Of a DNA stretch of 36,967 nucleotides, positions 2,206 through 9,801 are shown piece by piece; the stretch's first letter is position 1; each line of letters starts with the position of its first letter. A program made the translations under genes and the position numbers. Under the pieces are notes generated by a model. It was not told the origin of the DNA. It searched no databases and was given only the letters and a program-made list of their open reading frames with translations. This DNA comes from a virus: positions 1-36,967 of the IMG/VR virus record IMGVR_UViG_3300026518_000663; one strand, given 5' to 3'.

Positions 2206-2272
2206 CAAAATAACAATTTACTTTTGTCAGACCTCGCTGCGCTTCGGCAACAAATCTCTGGGTTAACCTGCC
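2206..2272 (+). repeat. attC-like site 7, at the array/phage junction
   Basis: Left core CAAAATAAC (2206-2214) pairs with GTTATTTTG at 2027-2035, closing cassette 6. The right core is GTTAACC (2262-2268), and its TTA gives the stop codon of the PrtN-like gene. The stem around CTCGCTGCGCTTCGG is less symmetric than in the other sites, and polarity cannot be read from the inner boxes alone. No site further right pairs with GTTAACCTGCC, so this is the right end. Confidence 0.75.
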
Positions 2273-2520
2273 TTTCGCATTTTCTTCCACTGTTCTCGAG
2301 CAGTGGCTGATTGGTCATCGATATATTGAGCCCAGTCGGCTGCGCTGCAAAAGTAGCCAGATTTCCCGGTTTTTTTGTAAAACGGAACCGGCAGGTCGTG
2401 GGCAGCGGCTTTCCGTTTTGCTTGGGCCAGTTCCATACCGAAGTGTTCTTTGCAGACCTGCTCCAGCGGGATCTCTGCGCTGCCGAACTGGTGCATAACC
2501 AGAAATATGGTGGTGCTCAT
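2263..2520 (-). CDS. PrtN-like transcription regulator
   Basis: The 85-residue product starts MSTTIFLVMHQFG and contains AEIPLEQVCKEHFGM and a later region with PVPFYKK. This order (hydrophobic start, 'IPLE.VC..YF' helix, basic helix, 'PVP') matches the pyocin activator PrtN family. PrtN activates pyocin genes in Pseudomonas; related proteins in prophages often sit next to the integrase and may act like excisionases. ATG 2520 overlaps the upstream stop (ATGA). Its own stop lies within attC site 7, so the array begins exactly where this gene ends. Confidence 0.78.
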   Translation of the reverse strand: MSTTIFLVMHQFGSAEIPLEQVCKEHFGMELAQAKRKAAAHDLPVPFYKKTGKSGYFCSAADWAQYIDDQSATAREQWKKMRKAG

Positions 2521-3017
2521 GCGGCCTCCGTCATTCGTTCGAGTTGTCTGATCATGGTTGCGGCTTCGGTGTGGGCGCGATCCCATGGTTTGTGTGCTGC
2601 GAACAGCCGCAGTGCATCGCGCTCTGACCGGTGTAGGTCAACCGCGTGATCTGGCACTATGAAAAAGCCAGAACTGCAGACGTGGTTGAGGTTTTGCTCG
2701 CCGACAAAATCCCAGTGCAGCTGATCGATCTGTGCGTTGATGTCGCTGCGGCTTTTGTGTTCGGTGATGGTGTGGTGATCCGTCTTTGCGAATGGCTCAA
2801 TGCCGTTATCCAGAAAAACGACGATCATAATTGCCCAGGTGTTCCGGCGGTTGAGGATCGCCACGGCATCATCTGTAGTGATGGTGTGTTTTGGGTTGCC
2901 GACCTCAGCACCCTGGCTGGCCATCATGGTGCCGTGCATGTAAAACGTGTTACGGCGGATGTCGTCACGCAGTCGTTGGGCGTTTTTGCCCTGGCGGGCG
3001 CGGGTTGATTTTTTCAT
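2517..3017 (-). CDS. Hypothetical early protein
   Basis: The 166-residue product begins MKKSTRARQGKNAQRLRDD. ATG 3017 is chosen because it overlaps the methyltransferase stop (ATGA), matching the coupling seen throughout this operon. A middle section has AIMIVVFLDNGIEPFAK and a histidine-rich stretch follows. It ends with an Arg-rich helix. I recognise no family. Its position between a methyltransferase and PrtN suggests an early accessory or regulatory function, without further evidence. Confidence 0.65.
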   Translation of the reverse strand: MKKSTRARQGKNAQRLRDDIRRNTFYMHGTMMASQGAEVGNPKHTITTDDAVAILNRRNTWAIMIVVFLDNGIEPFAKTDHHTITEHKSRSDINAQIDQLHWDFVGEQNLNHVCSSGFFIVPDHAVDLHRSERDALRLFAAHKPWDRAHTEAATMIRQLERMTEAA

Positions 3018-3904
3018 GCTGCTTGCCTCTGCTGCTTGAAATATCTTGTTAGTTCTCGGCCAGCCCACTCGGCCATTTGTACTGGTACGCCGTTTCCGAT
3101 CTGTCGGTATGCGGCGGTGTTAGATCCGGGGAATGTGAAGCTGTCTGGTATGCCTTGGAGTCGGGCGTATTCTCGTACGCTGTAGGGGCGTACTCCCATT
3201 GGAAAGCGCTTGTCTTTTACCAGTCGAGTGCTTTTATCTTTGGCGTAATGTGCAACGCATGTAGGTGCGATGTCTCCACGCTCGGGGTCACTGATAATTG
3301 GCAAGTCGCGGTATGCTCCTGTCATTCGATTCTTTATCGCTGACGGGAGGGTTACATCTGGGTTTTTTTCCAGAATGTCGGTCAGGGATATCGCTCGGGT
3401 GTTCTCGGGTGGGCGAATTTTGAAGTGCTTGCGTGTGCCGATAATGATCAGTCGATGGCGGCGCTGCGGTAGCCATGTCTCTGCTTTTACTGGACAGAAT
3501 ACTTGTACGTAGTAGTCTGGCATTCTGGTCATGGCTTCCATGACTATCGGGAACGCTCGCATGCCCGGTACATTCTCAACCAGGTACGCTTCGGGGCGTG
3601 CAATAGCAAGGTGGCGAAGGGCGTGCAAGAACAGTTCATCGCCAGTGCGAGTGTCGTGAATATCGGCTATCCGGCTGTACTTGGTGCACGGGTAGGTAAA
3701 CGCCATCAGATCGCAGCTGTCTTGCTCCAGAACTAGCTGATGGCTGATGTCGCCCTCAACTAATTGGTGGTTGTGGTTTTTCCGATAGGTGGCGCAAGCG
3801 TCTTTATCGATCTCGTATGCTTGGCCGATATGGATGCCGGCGTTTTGCAGGCCGATATCGAGCAAGCCAGCGCCGCTGAAGTAGCTGTTGGCAATGATGT
3901 TCAT
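3014..3904 (-). CDS. DNA (cytosine-5-)-methyltransferase
   Basis: The 296-residue product has the C5-methyltransferase motifs in order: motif I FSGAGLLDIG at 9-18, motif IV with catalytic Cys73 in TYPCTKYS, motif VI ENV at 110-112, motif VIII QRRHR at 147-151, a target-recognition region after that, and a C-terminal GNGVPV motif X. It should methylate C5 of cytosine in a specific sequence. Motif IV reads YPC where PPC is usual, and TKYS replaces the usual Q.FS. No partner restriction enzyme is nearby, so it is a solitary phage enzyme that probably protects the phage DNA. ATGA overlaps join it to both neighbours. Confidence 0.93.
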   Translation of the reverse strand: MNIIANSYFSGAGLLDIGLQNAGIHIGQAYEIDKDACATYRKNHNHQLVEGDISHQLVLEQDSCDLMAFTYPCTKYSRIADIHDTRTGDELFLHALRHLAIARPEAYLVENVPGMRAFPIVMEAMTRMPDYYVQVFCPVKAETWLPQRRHRLIIIGTRKHFKIRPPENTRAISLTDILEKNPDVTLPSAIKNRMTGAYRDLPIISDPERGDIAPTCVAHYAKDKSTRLVKDKRFPMGVRPYSVREYARLQGIPDSFTFPGSNTAAYRQIGNGVPVQMAEWAGRELTRYFKQQRQAA

Positions 3905-5250: not shown

Positions 5251-5519
5251 GCTGCGTGCCCCTTGTAGCCGGATTTAATTCTGTTTTTGTGTCCGTTAAC
5301 GCTGAGCTGCATAGGTGATTGGCCTTTCCAGCCGGGCGCTGCCTGGCCGCGCTTTCGGGATTTTTCTTTTTTACGGGCTACGGCTCCCAGTTCTCCGGCG
5401 GGGTACTCGTCGGGACTGTACGGAAGCTGCTGGATCTGGCCGCCGTTTGCTGTGAATTCGTCGATCTGGCGCTGGATCGCATCGCGTTTTTCTTGCTGAG
5501 CGTCTGTTGTGTGTCTCAT
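5247..5519 (-). CDS. Small hypothetical early protein
   Basis: The 90-residue product begins MRHTTDAQQEKRDAIQRQ and is rich in Lys, Arg and Gln, with a central basic block (ARKKEKSRKRGQ). It may bind nucleic acid. Family unknown. ATGA overlaps join it to both neighbours. Confidence 0.62.
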   Translation of the reverse strand: MRHTTDAQQEKRDAIQRQIDEFTANGGQIQQLPYSPDEYPAGELGAVARKKEKSRKRGQAAPGWKGQSPMQLSVNGHKNRIKSGYKGHAA

Positions 5520-5719
5520 GCGGCGTCTCCTGCTTCCGTGAATTTATAGATCGGGTCGCTGAACTCTGAGGCGGTCACGCCCGTAGTGAATACACCGATA
5601 AAGTCGCCTTCGATCAGGCGTTTGCAGCCGGGTGTCACGATTTCATCGGGGGCCAGTTGGCGCGCGATAAATTGCTCACCTGGCCGGTAGTTTTTCAGGG
5701 GGATGTCTGTGCAGCTCAT
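5516..5719 (-). CDS. Small hypothetical early protein
   Basis: The 67-residue product begins MSCTDIPLKNYRPGEQF and appears to be a short beta-rich domain. Its ATG overlaps the exonuclease stop (ATGA) and its stop overlaps the next start. Family unknown. Confidence 0.6.
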   Translation of the reverse strand: MSCTDIPLKNYRPGEQFIARQLAPDEIVTPGCKRLIEGDFIGVFTTGVTASEFSDPIYKFTEAGDAA

Positions 5720-6426: not shown

Positions 6427-6774
6427 TTATTGAAGCTGTGCCTTCATTTCTTCGATGCGCTGATGGGCGATCTCTGCCGGTGTAATGGCCGCGACCGATA
6501 ACCGCTCTGTGGTTTTAGTGTCGCCGCTATAGAGCGCTCTCAGGTACGTGATGCCGGCGGGCCGTACGGTCAGCATGGTGTGCAGCCTGGCGACTTTGCC
6601 GACCTGGTAGCTGTGGTGTTCTGTGTCGAACAGGTGCGCGGCTTCAGGGCGTGGCATGTTGCGGCGTAACGCATCGCTGTAGAGCATCCCTTCGGTGCGC
6701 AGGCGCTTCAGTAGCTCTGGGCCGGTGGTGTTGAGTTGCACGGCTATGTCTCGGTGGTCAATGCTGAGTGTCAT
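6427..6774 (-). CDS. KilA-C-like (antirepressor C-terminal type) protein
   Basis: The 115-residue product contains KRLRTEGMLYSD and TVRPAGITYLRALY. The 'L...G.LY.......P...............V...G..YL' pattern resembles the DNA-binding C-terminal domain of phage antirepressors (KilAC/ANT). No N-terminal BRO or KilA-N domain is present, so it may be a stand-alone domain. If the match holds it could modify lysogeny, which matters because the CI-like repressor here seems unable to cleave itself. Confidence 0.5.
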   Translation of the reverse strand: MTLSIDHRDIAVQLNTTGPELLKRLRTEGMLYSDALRRNMPRPEAAHLFDTEHHSYQVGKVARLHTMLTVRPAGITYLRALYSGDTKTTERLSVAAITPAEIAHQRIEEMKAQLQ

Positions 6775-7058
6775 GCGGCTTCTCCTGTCATTACGCGAAT
6801 GATCATGGTTTTTGGGCTTTCGAGCGCTGGCAGTTCGTCGATGGCCTGGCCTACGTGATCCAGTGCTGAATCGGGAGCCAGCGCCAGCGCCTCGCGGCGG
6901 CGGGCTTTAAAGCCTGACCAGAAGAACTCTGCTGTTTTCAGCTCGGCCAGTTGGCGTTCTGGTTTGTTCTGCTCGGTTGCGCGCTGCATGGCATGGGCGC
7001 AGCCCCAAAAGCGCAGGCGCATGTCTTGCAGTGCTTGTTCGTAGGCTGGGGTTTTCAT
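6771..7058 (-). CDS. Small hypothetical early protein
   Basis: The 95-residue product begins MKTPAYEQALQDMRLRFWG and is mainly helical, with a cluster of Arg in GFKARRREALAL. ATGA overlaps join it to both neighbours. Family unknown. Confidence 0.6.
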   Translation of the reverse strand: MKTPAYEQALQDMRLRFWGCAHAMQRATEQNKPERQLAELKTAEFFWSGFKARRREALALAPDSALDHVGQAIDELPALESPKTMIIRVMTGEAA

Positions 7059-7231
7059 GCTGCTGGCTCCGGGTCGAAGTCGTCTGCCCGGTTGATCTCT
7101 GCAAACAGGCCGTTGTGGCTGGCCACGATGCGGGCGCCGGTTTCGTTCTCGATGGCGTCCAGTACGTCCAGCATGTCCGGGCGGTTGAACACGGATGGAT
7201 GAATCACGATGTCGGCTTTTGCTGTTTGCAT
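7055..7231 (-). CDS. First gene of the leftward operon, small hypothetical protein
   Basis: Starting at ATG 7231 the product is 58 residues, beginning MQTAKADIVIHPSVFNRPD. A longer frame to 7330 would begin upstream of the promoter and read through the operators, so it is rejected. AAGGC lies upstream at the right distance. It is the promoter-proximal gene of the early operon. Family unknown. Confidence 0.62.
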   Translation of the reverse strand: MQTAKADIVIHPSVFNRPDMLDVLDAIENETGARIVASHNGLFAEINRADDFDPEPAA

Positions 7232-7246
7232 GACGTTTGCCTTATA

Positions 7247-7297
7247 TGTATCTAAACGGTACATATTAAATGTGTACCTTGCGGGTACGTTTGTCAA
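7247..7297 (-). promoter_or_regulatory. Leftward early promoter with two repressor operators (OL/PL-like)
   Basis: On the minus strand TTGACA (7297-7292) is a perfect -35. A weak -10, CACATT (7274-7269), lies 17 bases on. Two 17-bp operators occur: TGTATCTAAACGGTACA (7247-7263) and TGTACCTTGCGGGTACG (7273-7289). The second fills the promoter spacer, so bound repressor should block the promoter. The same operator occurs beside the Cro-like gene, which indicates joint control by the CI-like protein. Confidence 0.72.
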
Positions 7298-7317
7298 TAT
7301 TTTTTTTCGGGTAAGAT
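7291..7317 (+). promoter_or_regulatory. Possible divergent promoter for the accessory pair
   Basis: TTGTCA (7291-7296) and TAAGAT (7312-7317) are separated by 15 bases, shorter than ideal. The -35 overlaps the opposing leftward -35. It would transcribe 7344-8284 away from the early operon, including in the lysogen. Weak call. Confidence 0.35.
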
Positions 7318-7343
7318 TGGGTGGCATCAAAAGGAGGTTTGAT

Positions 7344-7820
7344 ATGAAGGGGTTGGCTGTATTGTTTCTCTTGCCTGTGGTGGCGGTCGCGGGTCAGTAC
7401 CACGTCTGCACAGATGAAAATGGGAAGAAGTCGTTTCAAACGATGCCGTGTAATGACGCTGATCAGTCGGAGGTTCGTGAATATGAGGTTCGTGAGTCTC
7501 TGGGTGGTAGTGGCCCGTCAGCGGGATTGCCGACTGACAGTGATATCTACAAGCAGATGAAGGCAGATAATCGCCGGGCTCAACTGAAACGGGATATCAA
7601 GAAGGGTGAGCGGGCTATTGATCGGTATCAAAAGCAGATGAGTGGCGAGTTGGCGGCGCTGAGGGCGCGTAAGGCTCGCGCAAATAATAATCTGGCGGGA
7701 GCCACCTGGGAGCAAAGCATCAGCGCAGAAATGCAGGCGGTGTCTGATAAGTACGGCAATTTAATCGGTGTGGAGCGTGATCGGCTCACGGAATACAGAA
7801 GGGAGTTATCTGGGTTATGA
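7344..7820 (+). CDS. Secreted DUF4124-like protein (probable lysogenic conversion gene)
   Basis: The 158-residue product has an N-terminal signal peptide (MKGLAVLFLLPVVAVAG), then YHVCTDENGKKSFQTMPC. The 'Y.C.D..G...F...PC' pattern is the DUF4124 signature of periplasmic proteins. The rest is a long charged helix. AAGGAGG at 7331-7337 sets ATG 7344 as the start; longer frames begin inside the promoter. It lies between the leftward promoter and the repressor gene, a common place for genes expressed in the lysogen. Function unknown. Confidence 0.75.
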   Translation: MKGLAVLFLLPVVAVAGQYHVCTDENGKKSFQTMPCNDADQSEVREYEVRESLGGSGPSAGLPTDSDIYKQMKADNRRAQLKRDIKKGERAIDRYQKQMSGELAALRARKARANNNLAGATWEQSISAEMQAVSDKYGNLIGVERDRLTEYRRELSGL

Positions 7821-8284
7821 GTTACATTGATTCTAATATTTTGCCTGGTGAGCAGGTGGTTAGCCGCGCAAATATTCATTGGGTTGTTTTTGTCAGGCCG
7901 GTGTTGGCGGGGTTTGTAGCCCTTCTTTGTTTGGGCTCGCTTGGTGGTGCTGGTGCGGAATCTGATGTCCCTTTGTTGGTATTCGGTACCATCTTCCTTT
8001 TGGTGGCTTTGTGGTCTGGGTTGTCCTCTATTATTGTGAAGTTCTTTACTGAGATGGCGGTGACGGATCGGCGGGTAATCGCAAAGCGGGGTTTTATTCG
8101 GCGGGATACGGTCGAGCTGAACTTGGCGGCGTTTGAAGGTTGTAAGATAGACCAGTCAATAATGGGGCGGATTCTGGGTTATGGTACGGTCACACTGAGC
8201 GGTCGCGGGGGGTTGGTGTCTCCGTTCTTTCCTATTTCTAAGCCGTTGGAGTTTCGCCGTAGCGCTTTGTCCGCCGCAAGCTAA
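7817..8284 (+). CDS. Membrane protein with a bacterial PH-like domain
   Basis: The 155-residue product has two N-terminal membrane helices (about residues 25-45 and 53-72), then FTEMAVTDRRVIAKRGFIRRDTVEL and ILGYGTVTLSG. The 'VTDRR...K.G...R...E..L...' and 'GYGTV.L.G' features are typical of bacterial PH domains (DUF304-like). The ATG overlaps the preceding stop, so the pair is coupled. Its 3' end overlaps the convergent repressor gene by 4 bases. Superinfection exclusion is possible for an envelope protein at this position, but unproven. Confidence 0.8.
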   Translation: MSYIDSNILPGEQVVSRANIHWVVFVRPVLAGFVALLCLGSLGGAGAESDVPLLVFGTIFLLVALWSGLSSIIVKFFTEMAVTDRRVIAKRGFIRRDTVELNLAAFEGCKIDQSIMGRILGYGTVTLSGRGGLVSPFFPISKPLEFRRSALSAAS

Positions 8285-8931
8285 GGCAGTAATGCGCCTA
8301 TGACTTTCGCAACGATCCGAAAAGGTTCGGTGGTCATCGGGAATTGAGGGTTCAGGGGTCTCAGTGCCTCTGTTCCTGCCTCTCTGTATAGCTGCCTGAA
8401 GGCAGTGACTTTATTTGGCCGTTCGGTCAGTTCTGCAATTACAATATCGCCATTTTCGCAATTCTCGACTTGTGCTGGGTCGGCAAAGACGATGCTGCCA
8501 GTCGGGTAGGCTTTTCCGTATTGCGGGTGCATTGGGTTTGCTGCACCTGGTGCTCCCTCTACTAATAACGCAAATGTGTTTGGTCCACATGTGAACGGGC
8601 ATAGGGTGGCATGTTCAGAGCCCTTTTTCCCGATATCCAGATCTCTAATTGTGTATACCGGCACCACTGGGTGGCGGTTAACTGCATACTCAGCTCCGGG
8701 TTCTCGTACCGATATTGAATGGTCGTTGTCCATCCATCCTGTCGGTAGGTTGAAGCATTTTTCTATGTGACGTGCCAGGCTATCGCCGATGTTTTTCGTT
8801 GGGTTTTTGCCAATGAATCTGCTTACTTGAGTTGATTCTCTGTCTATCCGGGCTGAGAACTCCTGCTTGCTTTCGCATTCTTCTGCTAGCTGCCGGGCGT
8901 TGTCTCTGCGGATGTCGCTTATTGTTTTCAT
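8281..8931 (-). CDS. CI-like repressor with a degenerate S24 peptidase domain
   Basis: The 216-residue product has an N-terminal helix-turn-helix (about 10-65) and a C-terminal LexA/CI-like S24 domain: VPVYTIRD, YPTGSIVFADP, NGDIVIAEL and LRPLNPQFP. The usual catalytic Ser region (VEGDSM) reads VEGAPG here, with Pro128 at the serine position. The usual Lys (TFKQL) is Arg179 (AFRQL). No Ala-Gly or Cys-Gly cleavage dipeptide is seen in the linker, which has PGAEYA. It should bind the 17-bp operators but may not self-cleave. ATG 8931 is used; a longer frame would read through the operators. Confidence 0.85.
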   Translation of the reverse strand: MKTISDIRRDNARQLAEECESKQEFSARIDRESTQVSRFIGKNPTKNIGDSLARHIEKCFNLPTGWMDNDHSISVREPGAEYAVNRHPVVPVYTIRDLDIGKKGSEHATLCPFTCGPNTFALLVEGAPGAANPMHPQYGKAYPTGSIVFADPAQVENCENGDIVIAELTERPNKVTAFRQLYREAGTEALRPLNPQFPMTTEPFRIVAKVIGALLP

Positions 8932-8973: not shown

Positions 8974-9043
8974 TGTACTTTTTGGGTACAGGTGCTTGAC
9001 GGTACATATTTCCGGCGCTATCTTGATGTACCTAGGAGGTACA
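8974..9043 (+). promoter_or_regulatory. Rightward early promoter with repressor operators (OR/PR-like)
   Basis: TTGACG (8996-9001) and TATCTT (9019-9024) are separated by exactly 17 bases. Operators: TGTACTTTTTGGGTACA (8974-8990), a degenerate AGGTGCTTGACGGTACA (8990-9006) over the -35, and TGTACCTAGGAGGTACA (9027-9043) after the -10. The last includes the Shine-Dalgarno AGGAGGT of the Cro-like gene, so binding could also affect the leader. The 8974-8990 site faces the repressor gene and may allow autoregulation. No clear leftward promoter for the repressor was found. Confidence 0.8.
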
Positions 9044-9048
9044 TTACT

Positions 9049-9294
9049 ATGACCAAAAAAGAATTCTGGAAGCGCTTGGGGCGTGAGCGAAAAGAAGCCA
9101 TCGCGAACCATGTTGGCACTAGTACTGGATATCTCAGGCAAGTCTTCATGTATGACAAAAAGACTGGTGCTAAGCGTGCGAGGATTCTCGCGGCGGAGAC
9201 TGATGGTCTGTTCGGTGCTCATGAGTTTTGCCCGGATGCGTTTAGTGAATCTGATTCTTTGAGTATTGATTCTCATAAAACAGACGCTGCCTGA
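9049..9294 (+). CDS. Cro-like DNA-binding protein
   Basis: The 81-residue product contains the helix-turn-helix AIANHVGTSTGYLRQVF and a later HEFCPDAF, as in Cro/YdaS-like proteins ('...LRPD.F'). ATG 9049 follows AGGAGGT. It is the first gene of the rightward early operon and lies opposite the repressor gene. It should bind the shared operators and favour lytic growth. Confidence 0.8.
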   Translation: MTKKEFWKRLGRERKEAIANHVGTSTGYLRQVFMYDKKTGAKRARILAAETDGLFGAHEFCPDAFSESDSLSIDSHKTDAA

Positions 9295-9324
9295 CTACGT
9301 TTTCTAAATTAAGGAAAAGACGCG

Positions 9325-9801
9325 ATGAATAGCATTATGACTGCGATGCCGCTGCCGGGCATGTCTCTGAGGGCGGCGATCCGTGAGGATATTAAGCGAC
9401 AGAGGGGCACCACGGCGGTGGCGGCAACAATTATGGGTGTCGGTCACCCTCAGACGGTGCTGAATTACACCTGTGATACCAAGCGTGACACCCATGATAT
9501 GAGCCTGAAACAGTTTGAGGCGCTCCTTGAGTGGACGGACGCGCAATACACCGCTCATGCAGTTGCTGAGATTGCGGGCGGTTTTTTTGTGCCTGGCGTT
9601 GATCCGGTGCAGGGCGTTGATCTGTTTGAGCAGATGGCGAATTCCGTTGCGCGCGTTGGTGAGTTGGGTCAGGCCATTAATGAGGCGATAGCCGATCAGC
9701 GTGTGACGGTCTCAGAAATGAACCGCATTAAGCAGGTGCGTACTGAGTTGGCGGCTGAGATTAATACTCTGGTGAGTATCGCTGCGGGGATGCCGGGATG
9801 A
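9325..9801 (+). CDS. CII-family phage regulatory protein
   Basis: The 158-residue product begins MNSIMTAMPLPGMSLRAAI and contains a region with MGVGHPQTVLNYTCDTKR and LKQFEALLEWT. The pattern 'L....N......H.L.L.E...I...T' is typical of the phage regulatory CII family found in P2-like and Pseudomonas phages. The second half is helical. AAGGAAAAG precedes the start. It would influence the lysis/lysogeny choice or replication; the role here is inferred. Confidence 0.72.
   Translation: MNSIMTAMPLPGMSLRAAIREDIKRQRGTTAVAATIMGVGHPQTVLNYTCDTKRDTHDMSLKQFEALLEWTDAQYTAHAVAEIAGGFFVPGVDPVQGVDLFEQMANSVARVGELGQAINEAIADQRVTVSEMNRIKQVRTELAAEINTLVSIAAGMPG

Follow-up and report, generated by a model that had tools for sequence, protein, structure and literature searches.

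Can a phage repressor keep the S24 fold of lambda CI while losing the means to cleave itself, and, if so, what would bring lysogeny to an end? This question is raised by a CI-like immunity repressor encoded in a stretch of viral DNA of 36,967 nucleotides (IMG/VR record IMGVR_UViG_3300026518_000663, positions 1 to 36,967; hereafter, the window). The protein, of which the N-terminus reads MKTISDIRR, consists of a DNA-binding domain and a C-terminal domain of the S24 fold in which the residues expected at the catalytic and scissile positions are replaced; we refer to the latter as the dead domain. The features of the gene on which the argument rests are as follows.

8281..8931, (-): immunity repressor of the CI type, 216 aa, with the S24 fold but no active site
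8704..8931, (-): DNA-binding domain at the N-terminus (residues 1-76), similar to SPC32H Rep (structure, phmmer, phrog_12107)
8284..8667, (-): C-terminal domain of the dead S24 type, residues 89-216 (Z 15.5 against lambda CI, 8gmu_A)
8635..8640, (-): Leu98-Asp99 replacing the scissile Ala-Gly; Leu-Asp in 8 of 8 clade members
8548..8550, (-): Pro128 codon at the catalytic Ser position (lambda S149), by profile alignment to 1kca
8533..8535, (-): Pro133 codon, the alternative at the catalytic Ser column, by MAFFT
8395..8397, (-): codon of Arg179, opposite the catalytic Lys (lambda K192); all 8 clade members have Arg

Fold, active site and cleavage site of the repressor

The initial annotation had described the S24 domain as otherwise well kept and had proposed that a predicted structure be aligned with lambda CI and LexA. 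The S24 fold is recovered by profile and by structure. The C-terminal half of the repressor matches Pfam Peptidase_S24 (PF00717) with 28.3 bits against a cut-off of 23.3, and residues 88-216 of the AlphaFold2 model (30 sequences, pLDDT 89) match lambda CI 8gmu_A over 119 aligned residues with 32% identity (Z 15.5, rmsd 2.1). LexA is retrieved with Z 12-14 in the VIA structure search, and the C-terminal domain of phage 186 CI (2fkd/2fjr) is more distant, with Z 10 and 14-15% identity.

By contrast, none of the three catalytic features of an S24 peptidase was found. When the profile of the dead-domain clade is aligned to lambda CI 1kca (E 5e-11), Pro128 falls opposite lambda Ser149 and Arg179 opposite lambda Lys192, exactly as had been annotated. 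MAFFT places the Ser column on Pro133 rather than Pro128 because of a 5-residue insert, so that the catalytic Ser is absent in both alignments, with Pro at either place; the Ser and Lys positions were assigned from the sequence, the profile and a range-level alignment of structures. In the cleavage region, the intact VPVISWVQAG corresponds to VPVYTIRDLD in the window. The earlier statement that no Ala-Gly or Cys-Gly site is seen holds at the cleavage position but not for the rest of the protein, which contains Ala-Gly at residues 185-186 and Cys-Gly at residues 115-116; the same Cys-Gly is present, in addition to VQAG, in Hafnia phage yong2 and Edwardsiella phage EPP-1, which have an intact site. 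The uncleavable LexA variant G85D likewise has Asp instead of the Gly of the scissile bond.

Taken together, the sequence and the model identify the repressor as an S24-fold protein rather than an S24 peptidase, one that profile-based annotation would label as an ordinary S24 repressor. Strong support for a loss of RecA-stimulated self-cleavage comes from the sequence, from conservation across the clade, from the joint loss of the dyad and the cleavage site, and from the fold prediction; residual or unusual cleavage, by a host protease or through other residues, may nevertheless occur.

The dead-domain clade and its DNA-binding domains

When viral contigs were searched with an alignment of five members, 80 related loci were retrieved, seven of which (L015-L021, representing 6 distinct C-terminal domains) carry the replacements. 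All seven have Arg for Lys and Leu-Asp for Ala-Gly, and their Ser position is occupied by Pro, Ala or Gln, varying with the member and the alignment, but never by Ser. Among the remaining 73 loci, 57 keep Ser and Lys, invariably along with Ala-Gly (57/57), and 16 combine Thr with Lys, mostly with Ala-Ala. In a tree computed without the insert, the active-site columns and the cleavage columns, the eight dead domains, that of the window included, form one clade with support of 100/99. No further members were recovered in a later scan using the dead domains alone, and no dead-domain relatives were found in approximately 85,000 bacterial and archaeal species covered by two genome scans dependent on short exact patterns.

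Pairwise dN/dS values within the clade, where estimable, are 0.11-0.18, which argues that the dead domain is functional; as far as the sequences tell, the clade is maintained by purifying selection. Given that the window is a single metagenomic record with no isolate, one might suspect a normal CI that has decayed into a pseudogene or been altered by a sequencing artefact, but with the same replacements in seven further IMG/VR records, under purifying selection, this explanation is hardly credible.

Among the related loci, the repressor of L024 (L024:2662-3297) has a window-type N-terminal domain and the Lys, with Thr in place of the Ser and a lost cleavage site (Leu-Thr). Possibly, this protein is a sister of the dead clade, on a long branch; it is also possible that it represents an intermediate towards that clade. 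A well-supported, separate Thr group (L043-L046, L048, L055, L068, L069, L071, L073, L077 and L078; repressor near 3001-3300) consists of S24 repressors with the motif DDTM, in which Thr replaces the catalytic Ser, the Lys is kept, and Ala-Ala stands at the expected Ala-Gly.

The DNA-binding domains of the clade are of several types. The N-terminal domain of the window repressor resembles SPC32H Rep, both in structure (5d50_A; VIA Z 12.9, rmsd 1.3, 74 aligned residues, 34% identity) and by phmmer (E 2e-4). Across the clade, the dead domain is fused to at least three unrelated DNA-binding domains: L002, which comes from the same record as L015, encodes a C-terminal domain 76% identical to that of the window joined to an unrelated, XRE-type N-terminal domain, and its operator region differs from that of the window, and a third N-terminal type is found in L019-L021. 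At the DNA level, an 84% match between the window and the L002 phage begins within the repressor gene, and the DNA of the cII gene is 92% identical (window 9280-9801 versus L002:4017-4537, genome G001). Between the window and G001, the cro gene, the N-terminal domain of the repressor and the replication genes are replaced, with sharp borders. By these comparisons, the immunity region has been exchanged and the dead domain retained.

Control region and routes of induction

The genes and putative sites that bear on the control of lysogeny are listed below.

8974..8990 (GTAC at 8975): putative right operator TGTAC-N7-GTACA, between the repressor and cro
9027..9043 (GTAC at 9028): putative right operator TGTAC-N7-GTACA, adjoining the cro start
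7274..7288: GTAC-N7-GTAC, putative left operator, located upstream of that operon
9049..9294, (+): gene for a Cro-like product of 81 aa, transcribed divergently from the repressor gene (phrog_35, transcriptional repressor, E 2e-6)
9325..9801, (+): CII-like gene (Pfam Phage_CP76, E 4e-12; phrog_101)
7055..7231, (-): leading gene of the left operon (58 aa), situated about 43 bp downstream from the putative operator
6427..6774, (-): KilAC-like 115-aa protein of the left operon, candidate antirepressor (Pfam ANT, 25.4 bits against a cut-off of 25.3)
2263..2508, (-): PrtN-like/excisionase-like 81-aa protein (Pfam PF11112; phrog_1300)

The window contains exactly three copies of the motif GTAC-N7-GTAC, against an expectation of 0.22, and a count of three was reached in 1 of 100 shuffles. 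The 12-mer ACGGTACATATT is common to both control regions (7256 and 8999), and the relatives G002 and G004 each carry a 21-bp sequence in identical form in both regions. It is likely that the three sites and the shared repeats are operators, as predicted from these patterns. With a DNA-binding domain, divergent cro and cII genes, and predicted operators at both early promoters, the repressor has the attributes of a lambdoid immunity repressor; the CII-like protein itself gave no match among phage records.

Between the repressor and the left operon, on the opposite strand (7209-8284, +), lie genes for a DUF4124-like protein, present also in G002, and for a bPH_2-domain membrane protein, a placement resembling that often taken by lysogenic-conversion genes. 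A 67-aa protein (5516-5719, -), which had no match among phage records, has conserved counterparts in all four close relatives and weakly conserved ones in two of the distant phages with a dead domain.

We propose, with a probability of roughly 0.6, that the window encodes the immunity repressor of a lambda-like temperate phage, one unable to cleave itself, in which the S24 fold is kept for dimerization and cooperativity, and that an antirepressor lifts lysogeny. As the fold suggests, the S24 domain would be retained for dimerization and for cooperative binding at OR and OL, and the antirepressor would bind the repressor and remove it from the DNA. Because phages with different DNA-binding domains and operators have the dead domain in common, this domain is probably where the antirepressor docks. 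No antirepressor was identified in the window. A bolder version, which we consider unlikely, holds that in one clade of phages the S24 domain has turned into a pure docking module that is swapped among heteroimmune repressors and recognized by one dedicated antirepressor type, either the KilAC-like protein or the product of the conserved gene past the end of the record. If true, such a module would coordinate control across phages that differ in their operators, with no need for the repressor to be cleaved.

The initial annotation had offered the KilA-C-like gene or the PrtN-like gene as an alternative induction route, and the case for either is weak. The PrtN-like protein matches both Pfam PyocinActivator (PF11112) and the PHROG excisionase family phrog_1300 (E 2e-18), has a homologue in only 1 of the 9 records compared, and looks like an excisionase rather than an inducer. 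The KilAC-like gene belongs to the operon that follows the putative left operator of the repressor itself and should therefore be silent in the lysogen, so that it is more likely an early lytic factor than a trigger.

That same position is compatible with a tentative alternative, in which the KilAC-like protein is a dedicated antirepressor of the dead-S24 repressor that acts early in the lytic cycle and locks the lytic state, but does not start induction. The protein belongs, at the cut-off, to the Pfam KilAC family (the ANT domain is borderline, with a second value of 26.1 bits, and one relative scores 32.8), and, of the 8 dead-domain records, 5 carry its gene, namely, the window and G001-G004, where its relatives are 44-100% identical; it was not found in the two intact-site relatives or the Ser-to-Thr relative (G008-G010). 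However, G005, G006 and G007, the dead-domain records at greater distance, likewise gave no sign of it, and the five carriers share other left-arm genes, so that the co-occurrence may simply reflect kinship. Moreover, a gene under repressor control makes a poor trigger, and the fold model yielded no convincing match in the PDB, although a missing match is not evidence for a different fold. Among phage records, the protein had no match.

The repressor might instead be removed in trans by a host or phage protease, whether ClpXP-like or another S24 or M78 peptidase. ImmA/ImmR provides a precedent for a repressor being cleaved by a separate enzyme, but neither a second S24 protein nor an M78 (ImmA-type) protease was found in the seven records searched (the window and six relatives), and we regard this route as quite improbable.

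The proposed loss of RecA-stimulated self-cleavage, put forward in the initial annotation as a sign that induction takes another path, is thus upheld, but SOS-free induction does not follow from it, because the uncleaved repressors of phages 186, N15 and Gifsy are nonetheless SOS-induced via LexA-controlled antirepressors (PMC3121763). The switch of the antirepressor that we propose here might likewise be a LexA-controlled gene, located in a part of the genome missing from the record. The genomes are partly incomplete, and the record itself is probably so: its ends (1-36967) do not overlap; no integrase was recognized among the window genes, though an excisionase-like gene is present, and G001 carries a serine integrase at the corresponding place; and a conserved 149-aa gene in G001-G004 follows the gene at which the window ends. 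SOS control is possible because the record, in which no integrase was recognized, ends where relatives carry another gene, and we view induction that is still SOS-dependent, through a LexA-controlled antirepressor next to the integrase in the absent part of the genome, as a serious contender, at somewhat less than even odds. In G001, a LexA-like box (L095:17795) lies directly past a terminator-like hairpin, near the area of the 149-aa gene, and scores 17.2 bits, with E. coli training sites scoring 15-27. However, one of 50 shuffled genomes gave a higher score (19.2 bits), and the match does not stand out clearly from chance; no clear gene follows the box, the remaining dead-domain records yielded none comparable, and no convincing one was found in the window. 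The 149-aa gene (L095:18324-18773; homologues in L098, L101 and L102) adjoins the end of the structural module, and its product in G001 matched no known family.

Comparison with known systems

The closest structural parallel is with lambda CI, LexA and UmuD: the C-terminal fold (Z 15.5), the divergent layout of cro and cII and the paired operators are alike, whereas the repressor described here is without the catalytic Ser, the Lys and the Ala-Gly, contains a 5-residue insert at the nucleophile, and has a shorter stretch past the cleavage position. With Rep of Salmonella phage SPC32H, by contrast, it is the N-terminal domain that is shared (5d50, Z 12.9, 34% identity): only residues 1-76 of the repressor align, and an Ant gene was not identified in the window. 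In SPC32H, the Rep tetramer is broken by the antirepressor Ant, itself a tetramer, which binds two dimers of Rep (PMC9638917), and 5d50 is the structure of Rep solved in complex with Ant. The CI of phage 186, which is countered by the antirepressor Tum, has a C-terminal domain of related fold (Z 10) but is distant in sequence, and neither a Tum-like gene nor a LexA box was seen here.

The repressors GfoR and GtgR of the Gifsy phages are likewise uncleaved, and one antirepressor can act on heteroimmune repressors (PMC3121763), a mode of action that the shared dead domain would allow here as well. Unlike the window repressor, these proteins are only about 136-150 aa long and reportedly do not have the two-domain architecture of CI. 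The layout of G001, with a LexA-like box past a terminator-like hairpin, also resembles that of the Gifsy phages (PMC3121763). In a different group, the linear plasmid-like phages, 210 of 271 cI proteins have been labelled putatively non-autoproteolytic (PMC10432266), a label that denotes missing predicted catalytic sites rather than a defined clade.

Thus, uncleaved repressors are already known, from Gifsy, 186 and N15 (PMC3121763), and are common (PMC10432266), so that the principle is not new. What is new, according to the available literature, is a defined clade in which the full S24 fold is under selection, the whole cleavage apparatus is replaced, and different DNA-binding domains are attached. 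This clade is a clean natural case in which nucleophile, base and scissile bond have all been replaced while the fold is still under selection; it separates the structural from the protease role of the S24 domain in repressors and predicts the existence of phages for which the usual CI rule is no guide to induction.
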